From contig NZ_AP024718.1 in the NCBI RefSeq assembly GCF_030294985.1, forward strand, positions 1,379,001-1,443,000: 64,000 nt of DNA, read 5' to 3'. Below are positions 5,368 through 11,013 of this stretch, in pieces. The notes under the pieces are model-generated. The model ran no database searches. It was given only the letters and a program-made list of their open reading frames with translations, and was not told the origin of the DNA. Source of the DNA: Methylomarinovum tepidoasis. GTDB lineage: Bacteria > Pseudomonadota > Gammaproteobacteria > Methylococcales > Methylothermaceae. Position numbers and translations under genes: made by a program. How positions within the stretch are numbered: the first letter of the stretch is position 1; every line of letters starts with the position of its first letter.

Positions 5368-5940
5368 TTACTCGATGACTTCGGTGGTATAGCGGTAGAC
5401 CTTGAGGGTGTCGGACCAGTAATCCGGCGGCAGGCCCGCCTTCAGTTTCAGATGCCGCAGAAAGTCGCGCTTGTCCGGCAGCTGTTCCCACACCGCCGGC
5501 AGGAAGGTGCCGCGGTAGGGGCCGTCCTCCAGCACCAGGCCGTCGATGCCGGGACGGATCTGGCGCAGCAGGTCCGCCTCGGAGGTGAAGCGCATTTCCT
5601 CCAGCGGGCCGAGGACGGAAATGTGGATGTCGAGCCGGTCCACCTCGTCCTCGTGCACTGGTGGAAAGCGGGGATCGCCGAAGGCGGCGGCGAAGGCGTT
5701 GTGCACCACGTCCTCGGCCAGCGGGCGCCGGGCTTCCAGGGAACCGATGCAGCCGCGCAACCGCCCGTCTTCCTCCAGGGTGACGAAGGTGGCCCTCGGC
5801 ACCTGCAGGGCTGCGGGCAGGGCTTCCAGGTTCACCGCCGGGGGGCGGCCGTGGCGGGCGCCGTAACGGATCGCCTCGCGCGCCAGTTCCAAGAGCAGTC
5901 GGCGTTCCTGTGGTGTCAGCTTGAGATCAGAAGAAGGCAT
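5368..5940 (-). CDS. AmmeMemoRadiSam system protein A (AMMECR1 domain)
   Basis: A 190-residue AMMECR1-domain protein. The landmark RGCIGSLEARRPLAEDV corresponds to the conserved LRGCIG motif of the family. It belongs to a three-part set (AMMECR1, MEMO1-like and radical SAM proteins) found together across bacteria and archaea, whose reaction is not firmly established. I start it at ATG 5940 (MPSSDLKLTPQER), which overlaps the 3' end of the MEMO1-like gene by 14 bases, a tight coupling. A longer in-frame form reaching 6069 would lie entirely within its neighbour and has no family match. Confidence 0.9.
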   Translation of the reverse strand: MPSSDLKLTPQERRLLLELAREAIRYGARHGRPPAVNLEALPAALQVPRATFVTLEEDGRLRGCIGSLEARRPLAEDVVHNAFAAAFGDPRFPPVHEDEVDRLDIHISVLGPLEEMRFTSEADLLRQIRPGIDGLVLEDGPYRGTFLPAVWEQLPDKRDFLRHLKLKAGLPPDYWSDTLKVYRYTTEVIE

Positions 5941-6712
5941 AGGCGCCATACCCCACGACTTGGTCCTTGGGGCCTGCGGTATCCCCGGAGTTGCGCAGAT
6001 CGACGGTTTTGGCCTTGAGGCCGTGCTTGCGTGCCGCCAGCAGCAGGCCGGCCACGGGAATGCGGCCACAGGCCGATTCCGGATGCAGCCGGGTCGGGTC
6101 CAGTTCCTCGATGGCCCGGGAAGTGGCCGAATCCAGGCGGCGGGCGGTTTCGTAATCGTAGTAGTGGCTGAGGTCGGAGCTGACCACGATCAGGGTTTCC
6201 GGCCCGCCCCACAGCCGCTCCAGCACCTGGGCCACCTCCTTCGGGGTGGCGTCGCCGACCACGATGGGCACTACCTTGAAATCCTCCAGCACCTCCTGCA
6301 GGAAGGGAAGGTGGACCTCCAGGCTATGCTCCGGCTCGTGGGGTAGGTCGGAGGCGTGCACGAAGGGCAGATCGGCGATTTTGGCGATCGCCGCCTTGTC
6401 CACCGCCACCGTGCCCAAGGGGGTGATGAAGAAGTCCACGCTCGGCACCGCCAGCCCGCGGAAGGGCACCCGGTGCGCAGGCCCGAGCAGCACCACGCGC
6501 TTGATCACGTCCTTGGCCGGGATCAGCAGGCGATAGACGCTCGCCGCCACCGGACCGGAGTAGATATAGCCGGCATGGGGGGCGACGATCGCCTTCGGCA
6601 CAGGGCCCTCCACGGCGGCGGAGGCCAGAAAGGCGCGGATCATCTCGTCCAGCTCCACAGGGTCTTCGGGATAGAACATCCCGGCGACGGCGGGATAACG
6701 TACGCTGGTCAT
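5927..6712 (-). CDS. AmmeMemoRadiSam system protein B (MEMO1 family)
   Basis: A 261-residue MEMO1-family protein, related to extradiol-dioxygenase-like metal proteins. Visible family blocks are RYPAVAGMFYP at the N-terminus, APHAGYIYSGPVAA, LLGPAHRVPF, EHSLEVHLPFL and SSDLSHYYDY; the conserved histidines in these blocks are the likely metal ligands. I chose ATG 6712, preceded by GGAGA, over a TTG five codons upstream. It heads a minus-strand operon B-A-2H phosphoesterase and is divergent from the radical SAM partner across about 80 bases. Confidence 0.93.
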   Translation of the reverse strand: MTSVRYPAVAGMFYPEDPVELDEMIRAFLASAAVEGPVPKAIVAPHAGYIYSGPVAASVYRLLIPAKDVIKRVVLLGPAHRVPFRGLAVPSVDFFITPLGTVAVDKAAIAKIADLPFVHASDLPHEPEHSLEVHLPFLQEVLEDFKVVPIVVGDATPKEVAQVLERLWGGPETLIVVSSDLSHYYDYETARRLDSATSRAIEELDPTRLHPESACGRIPVAGLLLAARKHGLKAKTVDLRNSGDTAGPKDQVVGYGAYAFF

Positions 6713-6729
6713 GGTCGTTCTCCGCAAGC

Positions 6730-6791: not shown

Positions 6792-9260
6792 ATGTCCACC
6801 ACAGCCGAAAGCCAGCCCAAAGACAAACACGTGGTGCCGACCAAGTACTGGCACAAGCTGCCGGATGGTCGGGTCCAGTGCGATCTGTGTCCCCGCTTCT
6901 GCAAACTCCACGAAGGCCAGCGGGGCCTGTGCTTCGTGCGTGCCTGCCAGAACGGCCAGATCGTTCTGACCACTTACGGCCGCGCCAGCGGCTTCTGCAT
7001 CGATCCCATCGAGAAGAAGCCGCTGTATCACTTCCTACCGGGAACGCCGGTGCTGTCCTTCGGCACGGCCGGATGCAATCTGGCGTGCAAGTTTTGTTTC
7101 CCTCCGGAGACGCTGGTGGCGACGTCCCAGGGGTTACAGCCGATCGGTCGCCTTTTCGATGCCTGTACCGAACGGGTGGATTATGGTGCGGGGAAGATCG
7201 CCTTCCCCCGCGAGCTTGAGGTCTGGACCCGGACAGGGGGGCGGTCGCGGGTGACCAAGGTGTTCGGCCGGCCTTACCGGGGTGAGATGTTGACAGTCAA
7301 AGCAATGGCAGCCCCCCCGTTGCGCCTGACGCCCAATCATCAAGTGTTTGTTGCCCACCGCGACCATCCGGATCGGCTGTTCAAAATACCCGCGGCGGAA
7401 CTGAGCGCCGACCATTATCTCGTCATACCCAAGCGGCGCTCCGGAAGCAGTGCTGATCTGGACGTCCTGAAGGTTCTGGCAGAGGTGGAACCTGGTTTCC
7501 ATGCCCCAAGAACCCGCCGTGTGGCCTTGGATTCGTTACAGGTGGCTTTTGCCGGGCAGGCGACTTCGGCCGAAATCGCGGCGGAACTGGGATATCATCC
7601 TGCCTACGTTCGTCGGTTACGGGGACAGTGGCAGCGGGGTGAACTGACCGAAATGGCGCCGCGCCCAATCCGGACAAGGGTGGAAAACGGATGGGTCCGT
7701 TTTCTGGGGGAACGGGGGCGCGGGGTGCCCGTCACGATCCCGTGGACGCCGGAATTTGCCTGGTTGCTGGGCTTTTACTGTGCGGAGGGGCATGTCGGCG
7801 TTCATCCCCAGCGGCCGAATTCCCGGTATCTGGTTTTCTCCACTGGCCATCACGAAGCGCATCTGGCGGAAAGAACAGCGCAGCTGCTGGCGAAGTACTT
7901 TGACGTCAGGCCTCGGATCCGTCGGCGGCGTACCACCCTGACGGTGGAGTGCACCAGTACTTCCGTGGCGCATCTCTTCGTCGCGCTGTGCGGACGGGGG
8001 GCCAAGGGCAAACAGGTGCCGCCACCCTTGATCCAGACCTCCGAGCCGGTGATCCGGGGATTCCTGGAAGGCTACCTCGCCGGAGACGGGTATGAGGCCG
8101 AAACCCATCTCGTCGCCACGACGGTTTCCAGTCTGCTGGCATATGGACTCTATGAGTTAGGTTTGCATTTGAATCTGTTGCCGACTTTCTTCGTGCATCA
8201 TCCAGCACCCCGGAAGCGGATCGAAGGGCGTGAGGTTGCCCAGGCCACGACCTACATCGTCAAATTCAAGCGCGATCGTTTCCACTGCGCCGACAGACGC
8301 TGCGAACGTGCTCCGTGGCGGGATGCCGGGGATCATTTTCTGGTGCCCTTGCAGCGGATCGAAAGGGAGGCTTATGACGGTTGGGTTTACAACCTGGAGG
8401 TTGATGATGCCGACCATGCCTATCTGGCGCCGTTCATCGCGGTTTCCAACTGCCAGAACTGGGACATCAGCAAGGCCCGCGAATTCGACATCCTGACGGT
8501 GGAGGCCCCGCCGAACGCCGTCGCCCGCGCCGCCCGCGAACTGGAGTGCAGGAGCGTGGCCTATACCTACAACGACCCGGTGATCTTCCACGAGTACGTC
8601 ATCGACACCGCCAAGGCATGCCGCGAGTACGGCATCAAGAACGTGGCGGTCACCGCCGGTTACGTCACCGAAGAGCCGCGGCGGGAATTCTACCAGTATA
8701 TGGATGCCGCCAACGTCGATCTCAAAGCCTTCACCGAGGATTTCTACCGCAAGATCTGCGGCGGCCATCTGCAGCCGGTGCTCGACACCCTGGAATACAT
8801 CAAGCACGAAACCGACTGCTGGCTGGAGATCACCACCTTGCTGATTCCGGGGGAAAACGATTCCACCGAGGAGATCGACAAGATGACCCGCTGGGTGGTG
8901 GAGAAGCTCGGGCCCGACGTGCCCCATCACTTCACCGCCTTCCATCCCGACTGGAAGATGATGGACCATCCGCCGACCCCGCCGGAAACCCTGCTGCGCG
9001 CCCGCAAGATCGCCATGGAGAACGGCCTGCGCTACGTCTATACCGGAAACATCCATTACCCGGAAGGGGACAGCACCTGGTGCCATCACTGCGGCCAGCT
9101 GCTCATCGGCCGTGACTGGTACGTCCTCACCGACTGGAACCTGACCCCGGATGGACGCTGCTGCCAGTGCGGTACCCCGGTGCCGGGGGTGTTCGAACCC
9201 AAACCGGGGAACTGGGGGGCGAGGCGGTATGTGGTGGATATGGCGCGGTTTGTGGGATAA
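6792..9260 (+). CDS. AmmeMemoRadiSam system radical SAM enzyme, intein-containing precursor
   Basis: An 822-residue precursor. Residues 1-101 and 554-822 are the two parts of a PflA-like radical SAM enzyme; joined they give 370 residues, the usual size of the family. The N-part has CDLCPRFC, then GCNLACKF with cluster ligands Cys95 and Cys99. The C-part restarts with CQNWDIS, whose cysteine completes CxxxCxxC. The C-terminus has a two-CxxC zinc-ribbon-like end (CHHCG and CCQCG). Residues 102-553 are an intein (separate entry). The partners A and B are encoded divergently. Activity requires protein splicing, because the insertion falls inside the Fe-S motif. The joint reaction of the trio is not established. 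Confidence 0.93.
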   Translation: MSTTAESQPKDKHVVPTKYWHKLPDGRVQCDLCPRFCKLHEGQRGLCFVRACQNGQIVLTTYGRASGFCIDPIEKKPLYHFLPGTPVLSFGTAGCNLACKFCFPPETLVATSQGLQPIGRLFDACTERVDYGAGKIAFPRELEVWTRTGGRSRVTKVFGRPYRGEMLTVKAMAAPPLRLTPNHQVFVAHRDHPDRLFKIPAAELSADHYLVIPKRRSGSSADLDVLKVLAEVEPGFHAPRTRRVALDSLQVAFAGQATSAEIAAELGYHPAYVRRLRGQWQRGELTEMAPRPIRTRVENGWVRFLGERGRGVPVTIPWTPEFAWLLGFYCAEGHVGVHPQRPNSRYLVFSTGHHEAHLAERTAQLLAKYFDVRPRIRRRRTTLTVECTSTSVAHLFVALCGRGAKGKQVPPPLIQTSEPVIRGFLEGYLAGDGYEAETHLVATTVSSLLAYGLYELGLHLNLLPTFFVHHPAPRKRIEGREVAQATTYIVKFKRDRFHCADRRCERAPWRDAGDHFLVPLQRIEREAYDGWVYNLEVDDADHAYLAPFIAVSNCQNWDISKAREFDILTVEAPPNAVARAARELECRSVAYTYNDPVIFHEYVIDTAKACREYGIKNVAVTAGYVTEEPRREFYQYMDAANVDLKAFTEDFYRKICGGHLQPVLDTLEYIKHETDCWLEITTLLIPGENDSTEEIDKMTRWVVEKLGPDVPHHFTAFHPDWKMMDHPPTPPETLLRARKIAMENGLRYVYTGNIHYPEGDSTWCHHCGQLLIGRDWYVLTDWNLTPDGRCCQCGTPVPGVFEPKPGNWGARRYVVDMARFVG
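7095..8450 (+). mobile_element. Intein with LAGLIDADG homing endonuclease, in the radical SAM enzyme
   Basis: 452 codons inserted in frame. Splicing blocks are visible: block A starts at Cys1 (CFPPETLVATSQG), block B has LRLTPNHQVFV (intein 76-86, T-x-x-H), block F is VYNLEVDDADHAYL (431-444), block G is PFIAVSN ending in Asn452, with Cys as the +1 residue. The two dodecapeptide motifs of a homing endonuclease are LLGFYCAEG (224-232) and FLEGYLAGDG (323-332). Between B and the first of these, residues about 155-178 look like a helix-turn-helix. The penultimate residue is Ser instead of the usual His. Leucine codons TTA/TTG cluster near 8155-8180, unlike the neighbours, which suggests acquisition. 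Confidence 0.93.
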
Positions 9261-9556: not shown

Positions 9557-11013
9557 CCACCCTATTACCCACATCTCCTGCAACTCATAGAAATCAATGT
9601 CTTATCCGTTTTTTCTGCGGGAACTTGATCTCGGCCGTCTGGATGGCAGTCACGGCCTCCACGTAGGCGCTCAGTTTGGTCATGCCCTGCCACAAGGCTT
9701 TGGGGCCGGGCGGGGGATCGTTCTTGCGTCCCAGCCAGCCGCCAAAGCCAGCTACGAGACGGACGATCGTGCCCAAATCCGGCGGCTTCGAGGGTGGTGG
9801 GGTGCGATGGTGGATGGCCCAGGCGGTCTGCCATTCTTCGACAGAAAACACCACTTCACAACACCACTCGGGATGTTCCCGCCCGAGCGTCATCAGCATC
9901 AGGATGCGCCAGGCGACGATCAGATACAGCACCAGGGCCCGTTCCAGGCGTTCCCGGGTGCGAAGTTGCAAGGCTTCGATGCGGCAGCCGCTTTTGAGAA
10001 TACGGAAGTAGACTTCGATCCACCAGCGTTTGCGGTACCATTCGATGCGCGCTCTGGCCTGTTCCAGGGTGGTGATTGGCTCATTGGTGATCAGACACCA
10101 TTCGACCGCTTCCCGTCCTTCGGGGGGCGCCTCTTCCCAGGCCAGGATGACGGTGACTTTTGGACCTGGGCCGTTTCGGGTTTTCAGTTCGAGCCGGGCG
10201 ACTCGGAGCGTCTGTGTGACCTGCCGGGCCGGGCGGTTGCCGCTGGCCGGAAGGTCGAAGGCGATCGTCCCCAGCACCGGCTGGGCTTCGACCGCGGCCC
10301 GCAGTTTGCCATCCAGGGGGTCGTTGAGCTTGCGGTCGTGTCGTACCCGGATCAGGTAATCGGCGGCAAAGCCCAGTTGTTCGGCCCGGTCGATCAGGGC
10401 CCGAAGGTCGCCTTCCCGGTCGGCGACATACACCAGCCGGGTCTCAGGCGCCAGGGCGGCCAGCTCGGCCACCCGCTCATAGCCTTCCACCCAACGCAGG
10501 CTCTCGGCCAGGTCCGGCTCCCCCTTGGGAAGACGCGCCCAGTGCCAGCAGTCGGTCACCCCCAGGGCCACCCCCGCCTCACTGATCACCAACGTCGGAT
10601 GCAGGTACAACCCCTGGCGTTTCTCATAGTTCAACCGTCCCAACCCAGCCATTGACGGCCGCCCGGAATAATCCAGCTCGGTGGTATCCTGCAGGCACAG
10701 CACCCGCGACTGCTGCCGGATCCGTTCCAGGGTGGGCACGCTGTGGGCCCGCAACACCTCCCGAAAATCCAGCCTGGGATTGTCCAGCAACCGGTAGGCT
10801 GCCTTGGTCTCCGCCCAACCGCCCCCGCAAACGCTGGGAATGCTCGCCATCGGGTCGCTTGCCATCGCTTCTATCACCTGACACAGCCGCCGGTTCAGGC
10901 GGGCATCGCCCAGCGCCAGGTAAAAAATTCTTGTTCAGCCCAGCTCATGTCAACGCTTATCCAGAAAAATCAACATCTTACTACAGGGGTGGGAGATGTG
11001 GGTAATAGGGTGG
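9557..11013 (-). mobile_element. IS4-family insertion sequence, 1457 bp
   Basis: Bounded by perfect 22-bp terminal inverted repeats: CCACCCTATTACCCACATCT plus CC at 9557-9578, and its complement at 10992-11013. It encodes one IS4-type DDE transposase on the minus strand. No convincing target duplication is seen: the left flank ends CCTGAGG and the right flank starts GGATAAC, which fits later rearrangement. It separates an aguB fragment from the neuA end, lying only 14 bases beyond the neuA stop. Confidence 0.88.
9594..10948 (-). pseudogene. IS4-family transposase, frameshifted near the N-terminus
   Basis: The main frame (9594-10877, 427 residues from its first ATG) has the Tn5-like DNA-binding block WAETKAAYRLLDNP, DDE aspartates in LQDTTELDYS and YVADREGD, and a perfect YREK signature (YRKRWWIEVYFRILK: Tyr, Arg at +3, Glu at +7, Lys at +14). 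The usual N-terminus MSWAEQEF lies in another frame starting at ATG 10948. It joins the main frame (LALGDARLNRRLCQVIEAMA) only if one base is gained, or by a -1 slip, at a run of six T (plus-strand A run 10922-10927). This is either a disabling deletion or programmed/transcriptional slippage. Confidence 0.85.

Follow-up and report, generated by a model that had tools for sequence, protein, structure and literature searches.

The window (the whole 64-kb stretch of DNA that we analyzed) contains a gene for an AmmeMemoRadiSam system radical SAM enzyme that is split by an intein. The precursor is a single open reading frame: the translation of 6792-9260 gives 822 codons in one frame with no internal stops. 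Its score against TIGR04337 (from NCBIfam) is 622.5 bits, versus a cut-off of 220, and the match comes in two pieces with the intein between them. Along with this score, the enzyme has the CxxxCxxC motif of the family, and the genes for AmmeMemoRadiSam proteins A and B are nearby. The features of the locus are as follows.

5368 to 6069, minus strand: AmmeMemoRadiSam protein A (AMMECR1 family; TIGR04335, E = 4.9e-63)
5927 to 6727, minus strand: AmmeMemoRadiSam protein B (MEMO1 family), a divergent neighbor (TIGR04336, E = 4.4e-82)
6792 to 9260, plus strand: precursor of 822 amino acids, AmmeMemoRadiSam system radical SAM enzyme plus intein (TIGR04337, E = 1.6e-187)
6792 to 7094, plus strand: N-extein, residues 1-101, ending in G-C95-N-L-A-C99-K-F (homologues L002-L020 run on ungapped)
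7074 to 7076, plus strand: codon for C95, the first cluster ligand, at position -7 (aligns with the CxxxCxxC of pyruvate formate-lyase activating enzyme, 3c8f)
7086 to 7088, plus strand: codon for C99, the second cluster ligand, at position -3 (by precedent, the partner in a MoaA-type redox trap)
7095 to 8450, plus strand: class-1-like intein with a LAGLIDADG endonuclease, 452 amino acids, residues 102-553 (from NCBIfam, Pfam, the homologue alignment, and the predicted fold)
7095 to 7097, plus strand: codon for the catalytic Cys1 (C102), the stand-in for the third ligand within the precursor (invariant in homologue alignment A1)
7329 to 7340, plus strand: block B, TPNH (TxxH), residues 180-183 (T and H invariant in alignments A1 and A2)
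7527 to 7634, plus strand: three-helix segment, residues 246-281, containing TSAEIAAELGYHPAYVRRLRG (AF2 secondary structure)
7764 to 7790, plus strand: LAGLIDADG motif 1, LLGFYCAEG, with the catalytic E (intein E231; invariant in A1)
8061 to 8090, plus strand: LAGLIDADG motif 2, FLEGYLAGDG, with the catalytic D (intein D331; intact here)
8385 to 8426, plus strand: block F, VYNLEVDDADHAYL, with Asn in place of Asp and with His present (N and H invariant in A1)
8445 to 8450, plus strand: block G, terminal S-N, with Ser at the penultimate position, where His is usual (terminal Asn invariant in the homologues)
8451 to 9257, plus strand: C-extein, residues 554-822 (TIGR04337 match to 550-816)
8451 to 8453, plus strand: codon for C554, the +1 nucleophile and, once spliced, the third cluster ligand (3c8f alignment)

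A short distance downstream of the enzyme's gene, on the minus strand (9594-10877), there is an open reading frame of 427 amino acids that by eye is similar to IS4-type transposases.

The borders of the intein are well defined. Among the NCBIfam models, intein_Nterm (TIGR01445) begins exactly at residue 102 and intein_Cterm (TIGR01443) finishes at C554 (E = 0.004), while in Pfam, LAGLIDADG_3 scored above its cut-off and Intein_splicing scored below its cut-off. The junctions are G-C95-N-L-A-C99-K-F before C102 and A-V-S-N553 before C554-Q-N-W. The gene is uninterrupted across residue 102/554 in all 44 of the gene-bearing relatives in a sample of 61 genomes (nine from the same genus included), and the pattern at the N-junction is found a single time in the 64-kb window, with 0.00 occurrences expected, so chance is excluded.

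The sequence-only reading had placed an intein at 7095-8450, in a radical SAM enzyme, between C95-N-L-A-C99-K-F and C-Q-N-W. This is correct to the base (the translation and the NCBIfam borders agree on residues 102-553), and both TIGR04337 and the junctions themselves bear out the host and the site. That reading also had the +1 cysteine serving as both the splicing nucleophile and the third cluster ligand. A sequence alignment pairs C95, C99, and C554 with the three cysteines of CxxxCxxC in 3c8f, and C554 aligns with the third of these; therefore, the third ligand of the spliced enzyme is predicted to be the +1 nucleophile, as had been claimed. The precursor does contain CxxxCxxC, which had been pointed out as well, but any intein with Cys1 that lies before a cysteine copies that cysteine, so the retained motif is automatic and adds no information.

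After translation, the intein would be excised by the Cys1/Asn/Cys+1 pathway, which would restore CxxxCxxC, and the enzyme could then load its cluster. The core residues of a class 1 intein are present (C102, TPNH at 180-183, N553, and C554) and are invariant among the homologues. Class 1 inteins usually, but not universally, have an Asp in block F and a penultimate His. Both are absent here: block F has Asn, as it does family-wide, and the penultimate residue is Ser. These departures would fit a dead intein that does not splice, in which case the gene would be a non-functional remnant. We consider this very unlikely: the block F Asn is common to all of the homologues, and the penultimate Ser is also found in several (across homologues, this residue is S, G, H, A, or C). 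Also, Cys1, TxxH, the terminal Asn, and the +1 Cys are all present, the frame is open over 822 codons, and the dN/dS of the host gene is about 0.10 when compared to the closest relative (G003). We infer that the intein splices, and we predict that the ligated junction would yield the tryptic peptide FCQNWDISK, versus FCFPPETLVATSQGLQPIGR and EAYDGWVYNLEVDDADHAYLAPFIAVSNCQNWDISK for the unspliced precursor.

The endonuclease also appears to be intact. Both catalytic acids (E231 and D331) are present, and the fold that AF2 predicts matches 2cw7, 7qsu, and 1dq3, as for a LAGLIDADG homing intein. In the homologue from Woesearchaeota (L030), the equivalent of D331 is N. Our AF2 model of the whole precursor (from an 8-sequence alignment; pLDDT 79, pTM 0.58) matched structures of inteins and homing endonucleases and, separately, 3c8f. 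Residues 246-281 could be the DNA-binding helix-turn-helix of the endonuclease region. For the middle part of the intein, which contains the endonuclease, dN/dS was below 1 in every computable pair (0.37-0.55 in close pairs of metagenome-assembled genomes, or MAGs, and 0.08-0.12 in more distant pairs). The endonuclease would probably cut the empty allele, and the intein would be copied into the break.

The distribution of the intein is that of a homing element. In the closest relative (G003), the site is empty, and the 48 nt across the insertion point are identical to those of the intein-bearing gene (for the host gene as a whole, dN = 0.018 and dS = 0.177). Just 1 of 201 genomes from the order carries the intein. 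More broadly, we sampled 399 Pseudomonadota, of which about 101 have the gene at a score over the family cut-off, and the intein split was seen in one genome only.

In the host tree, the window's gene lies beside that of G003 and within a set of empty genes; in the intein tree, the window's intein groups with other gammaproteobacterial inteins (100/98) and then with an intein from a Thermoleophilaceae MAG (100/100). The Thermoleophilaceae carrier belongs to a different radical SAM family, and its identity to the window's protein is 28% for the host portion versus 49% for the intein, meaning that the intein has moved from one radical SAM family to another. In three MAGs of soil gammaproteobacteria, synonymous divergence was lower for the inteins (dS of 0.063-0.073) than for the hosts (dS of 0.135-0.274; bootstrap 0 to 2 of 200), i.e., the inteins were two to four times less diverged.

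From parsimony and composition, we infer that the window's intein was probably gained recently, although it is possible that it was lost from G003 instead. The GC content at third codon positions (GC3) is 0.684 for the intein versus 0.846 for the host, which is only mild support for a recent arrival because intein GC3 is lower than host GC3 in every carrier that we examined. We did not find the immediate donor (the nearest intein is 57% identical). As for co-conversion, there was no divergent tract at the site between the window and G003, and no donor exon DNA was seen; in the flanks of the three soil MAGs, divergence was low upstream and higher downstream. We also considered viruses, phages, and plasmids as sources. 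A search with the intein alone found no viral relative, and the viral relatives found with profile A1 were all distant (24-30%); where we inspected the borders, these inteins sat in other proteins. Phage and plasmid records gave distant matches only (18.7-31.8% identity at the best places).

Why would an intein be found at this cysteine? Splicing requires C, S, or T at the +1 position, and homing requires DNA that is conserved across hosts. We ranked the 49 candidate C/S/T codons in the gene by the conservation of the 36 bp around each, across 32 hosts. The real insertion point ranks first of 49, and the codon for the second cluster cysteine is next. The third cluster cysteine would thus be the place in the gene that best satisfies both constraints. 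Because homing and splicing chemistry predict the insertion place, no regulatory role is needed; placement at a ligand is what target conservation predicts, and it is not by itself evidence for a sensor.

The sequence-only reading had also suggested a search for other inteins at this site, and we found homologues there in Gammaproteobacteria, in a Thermoleophilaceae MAG, and in DPANN archaea. Specifically, we looked in 84,980 species genomes for the start of an intein after GCNxxCx[FY]C. This gave 10 matches, and in all 10 the intein starts at the position of the third cluster cysteine. Eight of the 10 are homologous to the window's intein: four from gammaproteobacteria, the Thermoleophilaceae MAG, and three from archaea, of which two are titled Woesearchaeota and Micrarchaeota. 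(A ninth, L024, was left out because it is a fragment whose match stops after 62 intein columns.) The remaining match, L029, is distinct: its host is a SPASM-type, PapB-like radical SAM enzyme, and the insert is a separate mini-intein. Profile searches identified five more inteins that share this site, all from the phylum of the Micrarchaeota carrier (L033), and one more in an HpnJ-like B12 radical SAM protein (L056). On two virus contigs (L034 and L035), other inteins lie at the third cysteine of QueE-like and CXXX-repeat maturase-like enzymes. As a control, we searched viral contigs for insertions at the second cysteine; the one match was a 22-residue frame and not an intein. The third cluster cysteine of radical SAM proteins looks like a recurrent landing place for unrelated or distant inteins.

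The closest relatives of the window's intein are from Peristeroidobacter soli and the soil gammaproteobacterial MAGs (L031, L025, L028, and L032). They share the AmmeMemoRadiSam host, the site, and the AVSN/CQNW end (the slash marks the junction), and the inteins are 56-57% identical. Their carriers differ in that they lie outside of the window's order, as sampled, and we found these inteins in these unannotated genomes only. The host gene of L028 has about 45 fewer residues than its sisters after CQNWDMSKSREME, which may be a real deletion or an assembly error. A further comparable system is described by the NCBIfam model NF045703, for intein-containing tetraether lipid synthase (Tes). Its host is a radical SAM protein too, albeit of another family, and its intein is of about equal length. 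Residues 92-621 of the precursor align to 146-678 of the profile, with the pieces at the N- and C-junctions matching separately, and the model matches all eight members of homologue alignment A2. Going by profile coordinates rather than an alignment of the junctions, the Tes intein is very likely at the same site.

Taken together, we think it quite probable that the window contains a mobile homing intein, from a family that specializes in the radical SAM cluster motif, and that any redox sensitivity is an incidental side property. This single family lands on an iron-sulfur signature in both bacteria and archaea, and its hosts come from at least three families of radical SAM proteins. Inteins in radical SAM enzymes are already known (MoaA and the intein-containing Tes of NCBIfam), but the intein family at this site is little-noticed: our literature search, which most subscription papers were beyond the reach of, found no paper on AmmeMemoRadiSam inteins.

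The sequence-only reading had gone further and proposed that oxidation, or the loading of metal or a cluster, could hold back splicing and act as a switch. The redox half of this proposal has a precedent. According to two reviews, oxidation of the Pyrococcus abyssi MoaA intein forms a disulfide between Cys-3 and Cys1, which blocks the first step of splicing until it is reduced (PMC10663303, PMC3922620). That intein (Callahan et al. 2011) resembles ours in its radical SAM host and in having Cys1 with an N-extein cysteine at -3, which here are C102 and C99. It differs in that the host is MoaA, the organism is a hyperthermophilic archaeon, and the redox trap was shown by experiment there, whereas here it is a proposal. 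Since the motif of the host forces a cysteine at -3, the precursor has the Cys-3/Cys1 pair, and oxidation may slow splicing. Given MoaA's same geometry, oxidation-sensitive splicing is plausible as a property in the test tube, and we would give it roughly an even chance. The inteins at this site also provide a natural series of Cys-3/Cys1 precursors, so the generality of the lone published redox trap, in MoaA, can be tested.

Whether such a property would be adaptive is another matter. In a redox switch maintained by selection, oxidation would form the C99-Cys1 disulfide, the precursor would wait, and active enzyme would be released only in a reducing state that its oxygen-labile cluster can tolerate. 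Besides the MoaA geometry, with which oxidation blocks splicing, disulfides of the catalytic cysteine control the DnaBi1 intein of M. smegmatis: it is a sensor of oxidative stress that is locked under H2O2, with control in vivo (PMC6195587). The lock proposed here would also be on the catalytic cysteine, but DnaBi1 is a class 3 intein in a DnaB host, and the partner cysteine is inside the intein (PMC6195587). The organism is also likely to use, or be exposed to, oxygen, because two copies of a gene for a PF02461 (AMO/pmoA-family) protein are present in its genome. However, the cysteine at -3 is imposed by the host's motif, so its conservation is uninformative about selection on the intein, and nine genus-mates have the same enzyme without an intein. 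Furthermore, the endonuclease acids are intact, the distribution is sporadic, the intein moves between hosts, and it occupies the most conserved DNA in the gene. An evolved switch is thus unsupported, and we view it as quite unlikely.

The iron half of the proposal lacks support from either the sequence or the literature that we searched. It would have a [4Fe-4S] cluster or a metal bind to C95, C99, and Cys1 of the precursor and delay splicing until the metal state shifts. The precursor does have three cysteines at CxxxCxxC spacing, and the neighboring gene B belongs to the MEMO1 family. But any Cys1 intein that precedes a cysteine would produce that spacing, Cys1 is part of the Hint active site, and the barrel of the host is interrupted. 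In the AF2 model, pLDDT falls below 50 in the junction loops at 91-98 (cluster) and 555-570 (C-junction), so the model is silent about a preformed metal site and gives no sign of a formed one. We consider this kind of switch to be very improbable.

A broader version of the redox idea is that inteins at the third cysteine of radical SAM proteins are a recurrent redox gate, which couples the maturation of oxygen-labile enzymes to a reducing cytosol. If so, the gate would be common to separate types of inteins in radical SAM families from bacteria, archaea, and viruses, and it would help hosts to tolerate mobile inteins at the third cysteine. We consider this unlikely as well.

We also noticed inteins in other proteins. 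In the phylum of the Woesearchaeota carrier (L030), inteins with related endonucleases are found in IscU/NifU-type iron-sulfur scaffold proteins (L058, L059, L060, and L063), directly before the first cluster-site cysteine (GN[PV]x/CGDVMW), and another intein (L062) is at TFGC/CASAIAS. In the phylum of the Micrarchaeota carrier (L033), the beta subunit of a 2-oxoacid:ferredoxin oxidoreductase has an intein within its CPG/C motif (L074), again with cysteines at -3 and +1. SufB inteins are present in a gammaproteobacterial MAG and in an archaeon from L033's phylum (L051 and L076). Finally, the replicative helicase DnaB from the same genome as the window (G000:C1:1077164-1079368) has two inteins (L021 and L022), at GRPSMGK/CVVAG... 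and SDLRE/CVTGD....
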